Assembly (NCBI GenBank): GCA_020444065.1
Contig: JAHLLQ010000003.1
Coordinates: forward strand, 320,979-384,978
Reading direction: 5' to 3'
DNA from: a bacterium
GTDB taxonomy: Bacteria; Sumerlaeota; Sumerlaeia; SLMS01; JAHLLQ01
Length of the DNA: 64,000 bases
Shown: one piece after another, positions 11,202 through 59,891 of the stretch
Numbering within the stretch: position 1 is the stretch's first letter
Layout: each line of letters starts with the position of its first letter
Made by a program: the position numbers and the translations under genes
Notes under the pieces: model-generated
What the model saw: only the letters and a program-made list of their open reading frames with translations
What the model was told of the DNA's origin: nothing
Databases searched by the model: none

Positions 11202-12086
11202 TCAATCCTTCTGCTCGTACCAATCCTGTACGATTGCGTGTTCTTCTCGTGGTGGGCGGACGTAGCTGTGGTCGATCTTGCGCGCGGGCAGATCGATCGG
11301 ACCGGGCATGATGTCCTTGTATTCAATCTGGCCGAGAATGTGGCGAATGCAGTTCAGGCGAGCGCGTTTCTTGTCGTCAGACTCGACGGTGTACCACGGC
11401 GCTTCGCGAATGTCCGTGTAGAAGAACATCTCGTCCTTGGCGCGGGAGTAATCCTCCCAACGGTCGCGCGAGCGAATATCCATTGGGCTCAATTTCCAGC
11501 GTTTCCGGATGTCGCGTGCACGGGCCTGGAAGCGCCGCTCCTGCTCTTCGTCGCTCACCGAGAACCAATATTTCAGCAGCACGATTCCGGAACGGACGAG
11601 CATGCGTTCGAACTCCGGACAGGACCGCAGGAACTCGCGGTATTCGCGATCCGTGCAGAAGCCCATGACGCGTTCCACGCCCGCGCGGTTGTACCAACTG
11701 CGATCGAACAGGACGATCTCGCCCGCGGCGGGCAGGTGTTGCACGTAGCGTTGGAAATACCACTGCGTGCGCTCGCGATCGCTCGGGACACTCAGGGCGA
11801 CGACGCGCGCGCCACGAGGATTCAGGGGCTCGACGATGCGCTTGATCGTTCCACCCTTGCCGGCCGCATCGCGTCCTTCGAACAGGATCACAACGCGCAG
11901 GCCCTGGTCTTTCACCCAGTACTGCATCTTGACCAGTTCGGCGTGCAGATGGGCGAGTTCCTTCTCGTAGTCTTTCTTCTTCATCTTCTTGACGCGCTTC
12001 GGCTTTTCTTCGCTCGGCACCTTCTCCAACACCGCCCCCTTGCCGTTCGAGCCGGGATTCTTCTGCTTTCTGGCCTTTTTCGTCAT
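11202..12086 (-). CDS. ppk2: polyphosphate kinase 2
   Basis: PPK2 enzymes transfer phosphate between polyphosphate and nucleoside di- or monophosphates in the cytoplasm. The P-loop FEGRDAAGKGGTIKR (near residue 71), the lid GARVVALSVPSDRERTQWYFQRY and the Walker B-like EIVLFDRSWYNRAGVERVMGF are all present. One PPK2 domain of about 230 residues suggests the single-domain class I type, which favours NDP phosphorylation. The first 45 residues are an extra, strongly basic tail (MTKKARKQKN... RVKKMKKKDY). It converges on the kinase gene. The upstream gap holds repeat family A. Confidence 0.95.
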   Translation of the reverse strand: MTKKARKQKNPGSNGKGAVLEKVPSEEKPKRVKKMKKKDYEKELAHLHAELVKMQYWVKDQGLRVVILFEGRDAAGKGGTIKRIVEPLNPRGARVVALSVPSDRERTQWYFQRYVQHLPAAGEIVLFDRSWYNRAGVERVMGFCTDREYREFLRSCPEFERMLVRSGIVLLKYWFSVSDEEQERRFQARARDIRKRWKLSPMDIRSRDRWEDYSRAKDEMFFYTDIREAPWYTVESDDKKRARLNCIRHILGQIEYKDIMPGPIDLPARKIDHSYVRPPREEHAIVQDWYEQKD

Positions 12087-12163: not shown

Positions 12164-12240
12164 CCAGGGCGTTCTCATTGTACCAATCTCTTCGTTGAAC
12201 TGCGGTCGACTGGCCTGGTCGCGTACTTCAGCGCATCTTA
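12164..12240 (+). repeat. intergenic repeat family A, half copy
   Basis: CCAGGGCGTTCTCATTGTACC, then TCTTCGTTGAACTGCGGTC and GTCGCGTAC match the reverse complement of the right half of the full element at 38974-39099. The copy ends at the stop codon of the adjacent minus-strand gene. Confidence 0.6.
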
Positions 12241-33752: not shown

Positions 33753-34661
33753 TTATTCGCTGGTGCCGGGCTGGGGGATGCCAGCCGGCGGTGGCGGAGG
33801 CGGAACCTGGCCTTCGGCGGGTGCGGGTGCGGGTGCCGGTGCCGGAGCGGCAGGCTGCTCGCCGCCTTCCTGGCCCTGGTAGACCTTGAAGCGCTGCTCG
33901 AGTTCCTCGGCGGACAGGACGCCGCCTTCGGCTGCGGGGGCCTGCTGCTCTTCGGCGTCCGAGAAGGAGCCTTCGGAGACGGCCGCGCGGCCTTCGCGCG
34001 AGGAATCGCTGATGGCGGTACACATCAGGCGAATCGAACGAATGGCGTCGTCGTTGCCCGGGATCACCCAGTCAATCTCGTCCGGATCGCAGTTGGTGTC
34101 CACGACGGCGACGATGGGGATATTGAGCTTCTTGGCTTCCTTGACGGCGATCTGTTCCTTGGACGGGTCGACGATGAACATGACGTCCGGAATGCGATCC
34201 ATCTTCTTAATGCCGTTGAGGTTCTTCTTCAGGGCGGCCATCTCACGGGAGAGGGCTGCCTGCTCTTTCTTGACGTACTGATTAATGGTTCCGTCGTTGA
34301 ACATCTGCTCGAGCTCGATCAGGCGCAGCACGGAGCGACGAATGGTTCCGAAGTTGGTCAGCAGACCACCGAGCCAGCGGTTGTTCACGTAGTGCATCTC
34401 ACAGTTCGTGGCCGCTTCTTCGATGATGTCTTTCGCCTGCTTCTTGGTGCCGACGAACAGGACCGTGGAGCCCTGGGCGACCTCGTCGCGAACGAACTTG
34501 GTGGCGTCGCGCAGAAGACGAAGGGTCTTCTTGAGGTCGATGATGTAGATTCCATTACGCTCGGTGTAGATGTAGGGTTTCATCTTCGGGTTCCAGCGCC
34601 TGCTCTGGTGCCCAAAGTGAACGCCTGCCTCGAGCAACTGCTTCATGGTGACGTTCGACAT
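33753..34661 (-). CDS. rpsB: 30S ribosomal protein S2
   Basis: S2 binds the small-subunit head and is needed for S1 attachment. The start [20 protein letters not shown] has GAGAGG upstream. Signatures include [41 protein letters not shown] and [15 protein letters not shown]; the region [21 protein letters not shown] is standard. The protein is 302 residues, longer than the usual 240-260, because of an acidic then Pro/Ala-rich tail ([21 protein letters not shown]). It heads the rpsB-tsf-pyrH-frr-uppS operon. Confidence 0.98.
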
Positions 34662-34860
34662 GGAGTTACCTCTCCGTTTGGTTTTTTCCTCCGCCCTCGT
34701 CATCTGCGCTCAGGATTCGCGTCGGAGTCGACCCGCTGCGAACACCCCCGAGTGCATCGGAAGGGCGTGTGGATTCTTCGCTCGACCGCGCAATCCGGCC
34801 GAAACGGGCGCTGTTTGTAGGCAAGAGGGGGGGGCACTGCAAGGGGAATTCGGCGGCGAC

Positions 34861-34935
34861 AGGGCGTTCTCATTGCCCCAGGCTCTTCGTTGCGCGGCGG
34901 TCGGCTGCCTCGGGGCGCATACCGTGTTCGTGCTC
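34861..34935 (+). repeat. intergenic repeat family A, half copy
   Basis: AGGGCGTTCTCATTGCCCCA, then CTCTTCGTTGCGCGGCGGTC parallels the half copy at 12164 and the reverse complement of the right half of the full copy at 38974-39099. Confidence 0.55.
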
Positions 34936-34970
34936 AGCGGAACGATGCTCGTTTGTCTCATCGAGTTCGT

Positions 34971-37195: not shown

Positions 37196-38026
37196 ATGGA
37201 ATCCTCGAAACCCAAGCCCGCCCATCCGTATCGCCGCAAGGCGATCCTGCTTACGGTGTTTGCGCTGGGGATGTTCATTGTGCTCTGGCTGGCGGTTCTC
37301 CGGCCGAGGTTTCTGTCAGACGATTATTTCCCTTCCGGCACGAATCTTCAAGTCTCGATCGGTGAGTCCATCGCATCTGGACCCCAGAGCGTGGAAGAGA
37401 TCAGCGCCGGCCCACACGTCTTCCCGGTCGAAGTCTCGGCTTATGTGCATCGGGAGCATCAGCCCTGGGAAACCTATATCGAGGTTGGCGCAGAAGGCAG
37501 TGTCCAATCGATTATCATGCACTGGTCTGAGAACGATCAGTTCTGTACCCTGCACTGGAATGACGGAGGCGGGGTACGTGTCCATCTCAGTCTGCTGAAT
37601 GGTGGGGCCCAAGGGGCATGGAGGCGGACGGATACGGGTGAGTGGGAGGAAGCCGCGCCAGAGTTCAGTCAAATCAGTGACCTTCCGCCGGAGTTGGAGA
37701 ATGTCGCGGAGGAGATTCGAGAGATCGGTGAGGCTTCGCGAGAGGTGAATTTCGGACAGAGCCGACGGTACTTCTGGATGATCGGGACCAAAGGGATCCG
37801 GTCTAGGACCTGGGGCTTCTCGCGGCGCTTGAGCACTCATCGCCACGATCGCTTCCCCAGGAAGGGTGAGCATAAGGACCTGGCTCAATATGCGGTGAAG
37901 ATCTTGGACAGCGTGGTGGAGGAATATGGAGATCAGGATGTAGCTGAGTGGTTTGCAGATATTCCAGCTCAGATGCCAGGATCGAGCGAGAGTTCCAGCT
38001 CGGCCGAATTGCACGAGGGTAGTTGA
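37196..38026 (+). CDS. single-span membrane protein, tandem paralogue 1
   Basis: The 276-residue protein has a basic start with KPAHPYRRKAI, one membrane span (LLTVFALGMFIVLWLAVL) and a soluble domain outside the cytoplasm. The next gene encodes a homologue with the same HPYRRKAI start and the same C-terminal pattern: FGQSRRYFWMIG, HRHDRFPRKGEHKDLAQYAVKILD and VAEWFADIP. No known family is recognised. The start has GAGGAGGAG upstream. The stop is 8 bases before the paralogue start, so the pair is an operon. Repeat copies 5 and 6 bracket the pair. Confidence 0.75.
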   Translation: MESSKPKPAHPYRRKAILLTVFALGMFIVLWLAVLRPRFLSDDYFPSGTNLQVSIGESIASGPQSVEEISAGPHVFPVEVSAYVHREHQPWETYIEVGAEGSVQSIIMHWSENDQFCTLHWNDGGGVRVHLSLLNGGAQGAWRRTDTGEWEEAAPEFSQISDLPPELENVAEEIREIGEASREVNFGQSRRYFWMIGTKGIRSRTWGFSRRLSTHRHDRFPRKGEHKDLAQYAVKILDSVVEEYGDQDVAEWFADIPAQMPGSSESSSSAELHEGS

Positions 38027-38034
38027 GGATTGCC

Positions 38035-38859
38035 ATGGAACCGGAGAACGGCAAACCCGCCCATCCGTATCGTCGCAAGGCGATCGTGCTTATTGTCTTC
38101 GGCGTGGGGACGTTGCTCTTGCTTTGGTTTGCGGTACTGAATCCGCGGATTCTGAGCGATGAGTTCTATCCGAAGGACTCCGACCTGGAGCTGATGGTCT
38201 GGGAGGAGCCGCCGTGGCGGACGAAGATCGACTACGATACGCACTATGGTCCACAGAGGTTGCCGGTTGATTCGTCGGTTTCCATTCAGCATCGCGACCT
38301 TCCATGGCACGTTCAGGTCTGGGAGAATTCGACCGGGCAGATCGGCTTCGTCGTTTTCCAGTGGATTCAAGATGATCAGAGATGGGACTTGATGATTAAC
38401 GACAAGGGCCGGGAAGTCCTGAGTATCTATCTCTACGATACAAAGGTAGTGGGGGGATGGGCGCGGAATCGCGGGGACACCGAGTGGGTGAGGGGAACGC
38501 GCGACTACTACCTCATCGAGGAAATCCCGCCTGACTTGGAGGCCCTCGTCGAGAAGGTGCTCGAGGCGTGGAGGCCGATGGAGCGAAACGACTTCGGGCG
38601 CAATCGCCGATTCGTTTGGGTCTTGAGAGGGGATGGCCTGGCGGCCGATATTGGTGGGATGGTCCCGGATTGGGCGCAGCCTCGCACGCATCAGCGTTTC
38701 CCGCGGAAGGGCGAACACGGGGATCTGGCCGAGTATGCGGTCGATTTGTTGGATGCGGCCATTCAATGCAATGGGGATGAGGATCCGGCGAAGTGGTTTG
38801 AGCACATCCCGCCGCCGACGCCCTCCCCAACGCCGGTGCCGGTGACGCGAGAGGATTGA
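38035..38859 (+). CDS. single-span membrane protein, tandem paralogue 2
   Basis: The 274-residue protein shares KPAHPYRRKAIVLIVFGVG, one membrane span (LIVFGVGTLLLLWFAVL), FGRNRRFVWVL, THQRFPRKGEHGDLAEYAVDLLD and AKWFEHIP with the gene before it. Its middle part (IDYDTHYGPQRLPVDSSVSI) is more divergent. The proline-rich end PTPSPTPVPV is unique to this copy. Function is unknown; the pattern of one membrane anchor plus an external domain suggests an envelope or secreted role. TGAGGA lies before the start. Confidence 0.75.
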   Translation: MEPENGKPAHPYRRKAIVLIVFGVGTLLLLWFAVLNPRILSDEFYPKDSDLELMVWEEPPWRTKIDYDTHYGPQRLPVDSSVSIQHRDLPWHVQVWENSTGQIGFVVFQWIQDDQRWDLMINDKGREVLSIYLYDTKVVGGWARNRGDTEWVRGTRDYYLIEEIPPDLEALVEKVLEAWRPMERNDFGRNRRFVWVLRGDGLAADIGGMVPDWAQPRTHQRFPRKGEHGDLAEYAVDLLDAAIQCNGDEDPAKWFEHIPPPTPSPTPVPVTRED

Positions 38860-38973: not shown

Positions 38974-39099
38974 CCAGGGCGTTCCATTGTGCCAAGATCG
39001 AGGCGCGCAAGGCCGCGGCCAAAGGGAGCGTACCGATGTACGTGACCGAGGTCGCTGACCGCAGCGCAACGAGGAGACTGGCACAATGGGACGCCCTGG
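38974..39099. repeat. intergenic repeat family A, full element
   Basis: This 126-base element is bounded by 21-base arms (38974-38994 and 39079-39099) that pair with a single mismatch; the left arm starts CCAGGGCGTTCC and the right ends ACGCCCTGG. The centre holds the inverted pair CGTAC-CGAT-GTACG and the self-palindrome GGCCGCGGCC. Half copies lie at 12164 and 34861. Confidence 0.7.
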
Positions 39100-39196: not shown

Positions 39197-40843
39197 ATGA
39201 GTTCTCTGTCGAACTTGCGCCTGAATGTCCGCACTGGTCCCTTGAAAGGGCGCGCTATTGATATGAATACGGATCGGCTGACGGTCGGTCGCGATCCAAG
39301 TTGCGATCTGAAAATCGACGATCCGAAGCTGTCGCGCATTCACGGGTTCTTCGAGTTCGTGAATGGCGAGCTGTATTTCCGCGACAATCACTCGACCAAT
39401 GGTTCATCAATCAATGGCGAGAAGGTGGCGACCCGGAAGCTAACGGTCGGCGATCTGATCAAGCTGGGCGGCACCGAGATGGCGCTGCTCGAGGACAGCG
39501 ATTTCAACACCATCCAGTTCGTGCAAAGCGAATCGATGGTCACGAGCGTGCTGAACACGGCGTCGGTGAGTGCCGATGCCTTGGCGAATAAATTCTCGCA
39601 GATTTTCGACTACTATAAGGACAATCAGCCCGAGATCAGCCCGATCGAGCAGGTGGAACTGGTCCGGACGCAGCGGCTGGTGAACAGCCTGAAGTCGCTG
39701 TACGGCGTGACGCAGAAGATGTCGCAGTTGTTGCCGGTGCACGATCTGCTGGAGGTCATTGCGAACGGTTTGTTCGAGGTCTTTGGCGGCGCGGAGAACT
39801 TGGTGATTCTGCTGTACGAGGAAAAGAAGGGCCAGTTCCTGCCGCGGTATGCGTCGACGCGTGATGGGGACAAGGATGAGGAAACGACGATCAGCACGAC
39901 GGTCTTGAACCAGGCGGTGAAGGACAAGGCGACGCTGGTTGCGAACGACATCGGCAGCGATTCGCGTTTCGCCGCGAGCGAATCGATCGTGGGGTTCGCG
40001 GTGAAGGCAGTGATCTGTGCGCCGCTTGTTGTCGGCGATCGGGTGCTGGGCGCGCTGTATCTCGACAACCGCCAGCGCAATATTCACTACGACGATCTGG
40101 ACGCGGAGGTCGTGACGGCGTTCGCAAACCAGGCCGCGATCGCGCTGGACAACGCGAGGCTGTGCGACAATCTTCAGGAAAGTTACCACCAGACGTTGCA
40201 GGCGCTGGTGAAGGCGATCGAGGCGAAGGATGCCTATACGATGGGCCACACGCAGCGCGTGAAGAAGTACAGTCTCGGCATCGCGCAGGAGATGGGCTTC
40301 GAGCAGGACCATCTGCGCAAACTGGAGATGGCGGCAGAGCTGCACGACATTGGCAAGATCGGCATCAAGGAAGGCATCATCAACAAGCCGGGCGGCTTGA
40401 CCGATACGGAGTACAGTACGATCAAGGCGCACGTGGAGATGGGCGAGAAGATTCTGGGCCCGATCGGTTATCTGCGCGAGCTGTTGCCTTGGATCCGCGG
40501 CCACCACGAACGGTGGGACGGCTCGGGTTATCCAGATGGGTTGAAGGGCGATCACTGTCCGCTCGAGGCGCGCATTCTAGGCGTCGCGGATTCGTTCGAC
40601 GCGATGACGTCGAAGCGTTCGTACAACAAACCGATGACATACAACGAGGCGCTGGATCGGATTAAGGAAGGCGCGGGAAAGACCTACGATCCGGAAGTTG
40701 TCGTGGCGTTTGAGACGTACGTGACGGAATTGTTGCGGCACACGAGCGGTGAATTGGGTGTCGATCCGACTCCTTCGCACACGCCATCGCATTACGCGGC
40801 GCAACCGACGGCCGGGATCGCGGATCCGCCGACGAGTCAGTGA
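39197..40843 (+). CDS. FHA-GAF-HD-GYP signalling protein
   Basis: The 548-residue protein fuses three domains. FHA (about residues 8-95: LTVGRDPSCDLKIDDPKLSRIHG and NHSTNGSSINGEKV) binds phosphothreonine. GAF lies at about 170-325. HD-GYP at about 330-505 has HDIGKIGI near residue 381 and RGHHERWDGSGYPDGLKGD near 435, the full HHExxDGxGYP signature of cyclic-di-GMP phosphodiesterases. The FHA domain could dock onto a Ser/Thr kinase such as the one at 7479, which would tie threonine phosphorylation to c-di-GMP turnover (inference). It is cytoplasmic. A terminator follows. Confidence 0.95.
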   Translation: MSSLSNLRLNVRTGPLKGRAIDMNTDRLTVGRDPSCDLKIDDPKLSRIHGFFEFVNGELYFRDNHSTNGSSINGEKVATRKLTVGDLIKLGGTEMALLEDSDFNTIQFVQSESMVTSVLNTASVSADALANKFSQIFDYYKDNQPEISPIEQVELVRTQRLVNSLKSLYGVTQKMSQLLPVHDLLEVIANGLFEVFGGAENLVILLYEEKKGQFLPRYASTRDGDKDEETTISTTVLNQAVKDKATLVANDIGSDSRFAASESIVGFAVKAVICAPLVVGDRVLGALYLDNRQRNIHYDDLDAEVVTAFANQAAIALDNARLCDNLQESYHQTLQALVKAIEAKDAYTMGHTQRVKKYSLGIAQEMGFEQDHLRKLEMAAELHDIGKIGIKEGIINKPGGLTDTEYSTIKAHVEMGEKILGPIGYLRELLPWIRGHHERWDGSGYPDGLKGDHCPLEARILGVADSFDAMTSKRSYNKPMTYNEALDRIKEGAGKTYDPEVVVAFETYVTELLRHTSGELGVDPTPSHTPSHYAAQPTAGIADPPTSQ

Positions 40844-55310: not shown

Positions 55311-55578
55311 CGCGCTTTCAGCGCTCCGTGAGCGGGCGTCGTTGAACCCAGGGCTTTCGCCCTGGGCTGGTATGTGGCGGGGCGTTGCCCCTTCAATCGA
55401 TGATCTCAGAGCAGATCCGGTTGCGCTTACGCGCACGAGGAAAACGCGGCTGCTTCTTGAGGTGTCTTGAGCATCCTTGCTCAAGCCCCATGGGCGCAGG
55501 CCATTTCCATTGGGGTTCTCGCCCATCCTGCAAACGAGTGCGGGCTGGCTCTTGGGCAAAGATGCCCAAGTCACCTCG
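55311..55578 (+). repeat. composite repeat family C, copy 1
   Basis: The order is GCGCTTTCAGCGCTCCG; CCCAGGGC, loop, GCCCTGGGCTG; GGGGCGTTGCCCCTT; CTTGAGCATCCTTGCTCAAG; and CTTGGGCAAAGATGCCCAAG followed by GTCACCTC. This makes several consecutive hairpins over about 270 bases. Copy 2 is at 59659-59891. Confidence 0.65.
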
Positions 55579-59658: not shown

Positions 59659-59891
59659 CGCGCTTTCAGCGCTCCGCGTAGGAGCCCAGGGTCCCCAGGG
59701 CTGGCGCCCTGGGCTGATATGGGACGGGGCGTTGCCCCTTGCGGATGGCGAGTGCGAGGAAGATCTTGCGGTGACTTGGGCATCTTGCCCAAGCCCAGAG
59801 GCGTTGGAATTTAATGGAGTTTGTGGGCTGACGATCCTGGTCAGATTGTGGCTGGCGGGTTGGCTCATGGACAAGGTGCCCAAGTCACCTC
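59659..59891 (+). repeat. composite repeat family C, copy 2
   Basis: CGCGCTTTCAGCGCTCCG, CCCCAGGGC/GCCCTGGGCTG, ACGGGGCGTTGCCCCTT, CTTGGGCATCTTGCCCAAG and GGCTCATGGACAAGGTGCCC ending GTCACCTC repeat the order of copy 1 at 55311. Confidence 0.65.

Follow-up and report, generated by a model that had tools for sequence, protein, structure and literature searches.

A 126-bp hairpin element whose core appears common to ERIC and to dispersed repeats of several other phyla

The window, a 64,000-nucleotide stretch of a bacterial genome (G000:C3:320979-384978), carries an intergenic 126-bp hairpin whose core, as judged from sequence, appears to be common to ERIC and to dispersed repeats of several other phyla. 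We consider it likely that the element belongs to a superfamily that spans phyla and includes ERIC/IRU, that it spreads as non-autonomous, MITE-like DNA, and that its core is conserved as a single-strand fold with a role as an RNA hairpin. More than thirty years after its discovery ERIC serves as a tool for typing, yet, to our knowledge, neither its mover nor the function of its fold has been settled. A repeat that was thought to be enterobacterial seems to be a single branch of a far larger family. If the core is truly present in Bacteroidota, Bacillota, Verrucomicrobiota and others, carried by IS5-type ends with direct repeats in Porphyromonas and seated at a fixed distance before 16S rRNA in some Bacilli, comparison and simple experiments could address both the mover of ERIC and the function of its fold, and matches resembling ERIC outside enterobacteria would gain a plausible meaning.

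The element and its copies in the genome

The features of the window that are discussed here are collected in Table 1. Orientation F denotes the strand that bears GGAGCGTAC-N4-GTACGTGACC, which is the + strand of the window element. The inverted repeat described by the original prediction is real: its outer arms comprise 21 paired bases with one mismatch, the inner CGTAC-CGAT-GTACG lies at 39029-39042, and the + strand, folded with four flanking bases on each side, reaches -83.3 kcal/mol (z -9.1, equalled by 0 of 200 shuffles). In the same test the - strand reaches -70.7 kcal/mol (z -6.2). The apical core is of a type that is nearly invariant across phyla. A TTGACA is located ~23 nt beyond the end of the element, between it and the FHA-GAF-HD_5 gene, and three - strand open frames (128-292 aa) that cross the element gave no Pfam match. 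Like a MITE, the element is short, ends in terminal inverted repeats and occurs in many copies, and its 126 bp are too few to encode a transposase.

Table 1. Positions of the element, its truncated copies and their neighbours in the window
Feature	Position	Strand	Remarks
Full element	38974..39099	+	126-bp hairpin in orientation F; genome place G000:C3:359949-360080; R1 E 1.0e-22
Left outer-stem arm, terminal inverted repeat CCAGGGCGTTCCATTGTGCCA	38974..38994	+	Pairs with 39079-39099
Right outer-stem arm	39079..39099	+	Read from sequence
Apical core GGAGCGTAC-CGAT-GTACGTGACCG	39025..39048	+	6-bp stem and tandem G.A mismatch pair
Upstream neighbour ORF	38023..38859	+	No Pfam match
Downstream neighbour, FHA-GAF-HD_5 protein	39197..40843	+	Pfam
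Truncated copy	12164..12237	-	3' half in F, inner end approximate; precedes PPK2 gene in the same sense
PPK2 gene	11202-12086	-	Downstream of half copy 12164..12237
Truncated copy	34860..34923	-	3' half in F, inner end approximate; precedes rpsB in the same sense
rpsB	33753-34703	-	Downstream of half copy 34860..34923

The genome also holds the additional copies on which the original prediction had been staked. A covariance model, R1, was built from 12 of its copies only, with one copy that has an insertion (L012) and one degraded copy (L014) left out of the alignment. R1 finds 14 distinct full-length places at E 1.9e-27 to 1.1e-11, spread over contigs C1-C4, C7 and C10. By BLAST, 13 of the 14 (counting the window copy itself) share 76-100% identity with the window copy, and the fourteenth is L014. 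Truncated copies comprise six 3' halves (the weak one at C3:396253, E 7.5e-4), two 5' halves (L015 and L017) and one internally deleted form (C7:79640-79708). The two half copies proposed in the window stand as well, with best non-self matches to full copies elsewhere at E 1.3e-16 (12164-12237) and 1.1e-17 (34860-34923) and a match to one another at E 6.5e-8; folded singly, they are no better than shuffles. Within the window, the CAGGGCGTTCTCATTG block has two matches at up to three mismatches, a number that 12 of 100 shuffles reach and that is not significant; it is the genome-wide evidence that makes this repeat block real.

The earlier description of a dispersed, intergenic, MITE-like element was supported, and its BIME-like part was not. 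Rather than two facing halves, each full copy is one asymmetric hairpin, and the half forms are truncations. The stems of the two halves are complementary, with G.A/A.G at the apex, and a dimer of half units was rejected because the halves carry different conserved letters in the internal loop. A second short intergenic motif, ~CGTGCTCAGCGGAACGA, was noticed at window positions 34918-34945, at C7:56306, C7:54496 and C10:135653, and at other places; it lies twice near element copies and, with E-values of 0.03-0.8, is possibly due to chance.

Layout and conservation of the fold

From the outside inward, the element consists of an outer stem, an internal loop whose left side carries AGGC and whose right side carries CAACG, a variable stem, a tandem G.A/A.G, a 6-bp stem GCGTAC/GTACGT and a free loop. 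The 12 aligned copies of the genome have a mean column identity of 85%, and two-sided changes are already found within them in 16 of the 45 consensus pairs. A wider alignment, A3, contains 54 sequences from 42 loci; it is model-based and was fitted to the structure of R1, and therefore controls in which the pairing was slid weigh more than raw counts. In A3, 86.6% of cells pair (29-42% in the slid controls), and the covariation score is 0.442, compared with 0.104 for shuffles and at most 0.093 for slides. Two-sided change was observed in 40 of the 45 pairs, all 22 outer-stem pairs among them; shuffles average 35.2, and none of 500 reaches 40. The outer stem is free in sequence yet keeps its pairing, and the apex is nearly invariant. 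A3 took the place of a first MAFFT alignment (A1), in which the arms were badly aligned and no covariation was seen.

The fold is specific to one strand. Folding favours F over its complement in 181 of 189 unique core-bearing copies, as it does in 20 of the 22 loci that were inspected in the survey described below, these being the best-scoring ones, one per genome, of 49 genomes. The apical hexamer is present in all 22 of these loci, and GA is kept on either side in 16. The pairs beside the G.A tandem are CC/GG instead of GG/CC in nine of the 11 Bacteroidota and two of the 11 Bacillota survey loci. The longer copies of Porphyromonas somerae (L295, L298, L300, L301, L304, L311 and L313) contain extra GGTGC...GCACC hairpin inserts in the variable stem.

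Relatives in other phyla and the relation to ERIC

The 20 fixed bases of GGAGCGTAC-N4-GTACGTGACCG were searched for in genome contigs, where at least 119 stretches matched, and in IMG/VR, where none did. By their record titles, the core bearers among the listed matches include Porphyromonas and other Bacteroidales; Sporosarcina, Lysinibacillus and Psychrobacillus; Citrobacter, Ewingella, Pseudomonas, Marinobacter and Lysobacter; and Verrucomicrobia, Deltaproteobacteria, Sandaracinaceae, Bacteriovoracia and a Coriobacteriales MAG. These loci were chosen by their core, so that their scores are partly conditioned.

R1 was then scanned over 13 whole genomes at E <= 1, with at most 150 candidates scored per genome. 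The numbers of places, in which a palindrome may be entered once for each strand, were 144 in Deltaproteobacteria WY2.bin34 (best 4.4e-10), 142 in Verrucomicrobia GWC2_42_7 (best 3.1e-8), 89 in Pullibacteroides, 67 and 22 in two Porphyromonas genomes (the former P. somerae, best 2.0e-7), 37 in Citrobacter (best 1.8e-5), 12 in Ewingella, two each in Lysinibacillus and Marinobacter, and one each in Sporosarcina and Lysobacter. The core-bearing Pseudomonas WN033 had no R1 place genome-wide, and its copy reached E 0.078 in a separate R1 test. The reverse strand of two copies of the window's genome scores 57-65 bits, as high as many cross-phylum matches, and R1 thus rewards palindromy as well as descent.

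Among relatives of the window's genome the distribution is patchy: R1 matches at E <= 1e-3 were found in five of 60, all of them among the 11 genomes of the same order. A further survey employed R2, a model derived from A3 whose seeds include ERICs and whose E-values are rough, with 11 candidates scored per genome. It had matches at E <= 1e-4 in 31 of 296 genomes for Bacteroidota and in 18 of 299 for Bacillota, counting the two centre genomes, Porphyromonas and Sporosarcina, from which the phylum names were assigned.

The relation to ERIC is apparent from both sequence and structure. Between hsdM and hsdR of E. coli, R1 detects an ERIC at E 2.4e-6 over its full length (model positions 1-134), and in strain ER1709, a K-12 derivative, the copy between these genes contains the exact core. 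Of 5426 E. coli genomes, 5375 contain matches to the Citrobacter copy L087 at E <= 10, and in 4208 of these a place covers at least 80% of it. Among the copies searched, the ERIC2 primer site, as printed in PMC3867629 and PMC6232106, is present with two to three mismatches in 22 in the E. coli copy and in the R1-found Citrobacter copies L203 and L215. TA ends are not common to the element and ERIC.

Like ERIC (IRU, RU-1; 127 bp), the window element is a single long imperfect hairpin of similar length that is dispersed between genes, and it has the same apical stem with G.A/A.G and the same AAGGC and CAACGC blocks. The R1 matches in E. coli and Citrobacter bear out that it is, as ERIC is, an imperfect palindrome of ~127 bp with homologous sequence. 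The apical stem reads GCGTAC/GTACGT in the window element and GCTTAC/GTAAGT in the ERIC primers as printed, but GCGTAC is found in certain copies of E. coli and Citrobacter as well. ERIC is listed with 5'-TA-3' termini and a target duplication in Table 1 of PMC2229807, whereas the copies of the window's genome end in CAGGGCGTTCT (CAGGG/CCCTG), which is not of the TA type, and have no consistent duplication. Named records that bear relatives of the element include Bacteroidota, Bacillota, Verrucomicrobia and others, far outside the Enterobacteriaceae and Vibrionaceae to which a 2024 review assigns ERIC (PMC10969869). A partial literature search returned no description of ERIC-type elements outside gammaproteobacteria, and a prior report may exist. 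Enterococcus EFAR and Bacillus cereus Bcr1, both named in PMC3733652, may be members of this wider family. By their descriptions, YPAL/RU-2 of Yersinia and Correia/NEMIS of Neisseria are likewise small, palindromic, non-autonomous repeats that form RNA hairpins.

Mobility, gene context and alternative explanations

The signature of transposition was found in Porphyromonas, whose element is a true MITE with IS5-type ends. The P. somerae genome contains 166 sites of GAGACTGTTGCANGANG at up to two mismatches, compared with two for a backwards control, and such ends bracket a core-bearing element of 124-210 bp in 25 of 30 fetched loci, no end pair being found in the remaining five. Both ends are present in 40 distinct Porphyromonas copies, 29 of which are flanked by direct repeats of 5 bp or more (3.0% in shuffled pairings); 26 repeats are exactly 5 bp, three are 6 bp, three are 4 bp and eight are 0-2 bp. 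The right end of these elements, GAGACTGTTGCA, is the 12-base end that Table 2 of PMC4596501 lists for ISPg4 (IS5 family) and for MITEPgRS/MITE464 of Porphyromonas gingivalis; in most copies the left end (GAGAATGTTGCA) differs by a single base. The end match and the direct repeats together indicate that in Porphyromonas the core rides on IS5-type ends. The comparison with the P. gingivalis MITEs is one of ends alone, and the element of the window's genome differs from them in its ends. In Porphyromonas levii, L319 is a one-sided candidate for a partner: a contig that starts inside a PF01609 transposase gene encodes its last 67 codons, followed ~145 nt past the stop by the same end, TGCAACAGTCTC, and the other end is therefore out of view. 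None of the six PF01609 loci in the two Porphyromonas genomes was bracketed by ends on both sides, and searches with PF01609 and with the end sequences revealed no intact autonomous element there.

In the window's genome, the target duplications and transposase partner that the original prediction had proposed to look for did not emerge: no consistent duplication was detected in 13 copies at any boundary tried, with isolated 4-bp direct repeats only in L007 and L009; the six exact occurrences of the end sequence are all element copies, and DDE_Tnp_1 (PF01609) had no match. In a looser, fold-based boundary test, direct repeats were not clearly in excess in any of seven groups, this genome included; the test lacked power, because its P. 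somerae check set failed as well (3/10). The bases just outside the ends vary between copies yet pair across the element in 11, 8 and 8 of 12 copies at offsets 1-3 (expected fractions 0.41, 0.34 and 0.51), and pairing is near chance beyond offset 3. These paired flanks are reminiscent of YPAL, which, according to PMC2229807, targets sites in or beside dyad symmetry. The end pattern CAGGGCGTTCTNNTTG occurs at 139 places at up to two mismatches (58 for the backwards control), an excess larger than the known copies explain; the listed places are mostly single sites with two mismatches. Within the order of the window's genome, the element is present between UbiD and a glycosyltransferase gene in G018 and absent from the matching spacers of G019 and G021; the exact empty-site junction is unreadable because the three spacers are otherwise unrelated, and in G017 the matches to the two genes are far apart. 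In six G018 copies (L227, L232, L235, L241, L243 and L245), ~20 nt to the left of the element are also conserved and the right side is not, as though it extended further at one end.

In rRNA operons the core recurs at a fixed spacing. It lies 81-82 nt before 16S, always in sense, in eight distinct loci, one of which (L078) has a second copy at 205; these loci are from Sporosarcina, Psychrobacillus and one Coriobacteriales MAG, the contig of which could be misbinned. Further copies occupy 23S-5S spacers in Lysinibacillus, tRNA clusters in Sporosarcina and Alkalicoccobacillus and, in a Marinobacter MAG, the spacer between 16S and tRNA-Ile. A simple gene caller placed a sense gene downstream of 12 of the 13 full copies that were scanned in the window's genome. 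TTGAC occurs within 60 nt past the 3' end of nine of 20 scanned full and half copies and on the upstream side of one; among the 20 ends, those of L004 and L057 appear to be misplaced, and the count misses the window copy even though TTGACA is present there. The control value of 4% refers to random window positions and not to promoter regions. Gene orientation around 120 copies outside this genome was opposite/opposite for 42, same/same for 14, opposite/same for 14 and same/opposite for 17, the remainder being cut by a contig end or lying inside a called gene, and this mixture argues against one universal mRNA role. Replication-strand bias was rejected as a general cause of orientation, as GC skew along F is inconsistent between genomes: it is positive for six of 13 copies in the window's genome, none of seven in Pullibacteroides, 14 of 18 in Delta and six of six in Co_bin.20.

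In the mechanism that we favour, the element would move as DNA by means of its terminal inverted repeats, with resident insertion-sequence transposases acting in trans, and the copies of the window's genome would move as those of Porphyromonas do. The ends differ by lineage and are free in sequence provided that they pair. The inner part, with its tandem G.A mismatch on a GCGUAC/GUACGU stem and its AAGGC/AACGC internal loop, is kept as a one-strand fold, which most likely serves as a processing or insulating hairpin in transcripts. Such a hairpin would render insertions tolerable and may have become fixed before 16S rRNA in some Bacilli. Co-transcription and an orientation-dependent RNase E effect have been described for Yersinia ERICs (as summarised in PMC2229807 and PMC10969869), and from these effects, taken with the contexts above, we infer that a processed or insulating hairpin at the RNA level is the favoured role. 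A more far-reaching history, towards which we remain slightly sceptical, is that one ancient core spreads through many phyla by taking on, time and again, the ends of the IS that its host carries, with its apical RNA motif under selection, and was domesticated as a processing hairpin immediately before 16S rRNA, ERIC being no more than its enterobacterial branch.

The strand-specific conserved fold and heavy covariation would also be expected of a vertically inherited structured RNA, either cis-acting or an sRNA, with a host function, the repeats being paralogous genes. The fixed spacing and sense orientation before 16S, the sense gene just downstream of most copies of the window's genome and the TTGAC past their 3' ends would fit such an RNA. 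However, it would not account for the patchy distribution among relatives, the absence from the matching UbiD-glycosyltransferase spacers of G019 and G021, the direct repeats in Porphyromonas or the mixed gene orientation in other genomes, and we regard it as unlikely. A hairpin that is specific to one strand and retains its mismatches could instead be mobile as single-stranded DNA, in an HUH-type manner like IS200/IS605 or RAYT elements, with the G.A mismatches marking the strand. Both the lack of a consistent target duplication in the window's genome and the pairing of the bases outside its ends (11/12 and 8/12) agree with this, but the 5-bp direct repeats and IS5-type ends of Porphyromonas and the inconsistent GC skew make it quite improbable.

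Long stable stems, together with the A-run/T-run outer arms of several Bacteroidales copies, raise the question of whether terminators or RNase III target hairpins arose repeatedly and came to resemble ERIC by convergence. Convergence is very improbable given that distant phyla have in common the unpaired letters of the AAGGC/AACGC loop and of G.A/A.G as well as one length (~125-134 bp) and the same motif order, and that no T-run follows the stem in those copies of the window's genome that were examined with their 3' flanks. Mobilisation by RAYT as a REP/BIME-type repeat hardly seems credible. The element is palindromic, intergenic and present in many copies as such repeats are, but REPs are palindromes of 20-40 bp (PMC3733652) that BIMEs combine as paired inverse units, in contrast to a single asymmetric hairpin of 126 bp whose full copies do not consist of two equal, inversely oriented units.

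Among known RNA families, Rfam yielded no match at gathering level over the window element or over the copies in 25 scanned loci, and further scans of single copies gave matches below threshold or none. The Xanthomonas sRNA sX9 weakly matched one Bacteroidota copy (E 0.017), and a Lysobacter copy lent it no support. RF02818 (V_AS5, the Vibrio antisense RNA AS5) gave no match to the window element; it matches the E. coli ERIC (L196:2998-3121) over model positions 1-129 at E 6.1e-9 with 44.9 bits, below its gathering score of 96, so this Vibrio family looks ERIC-like. Elsewhere in the window, two Acido-Lenti-1 RNAs (RF01687) were found above the gathering score at 55347-55392 and 59694-59739.
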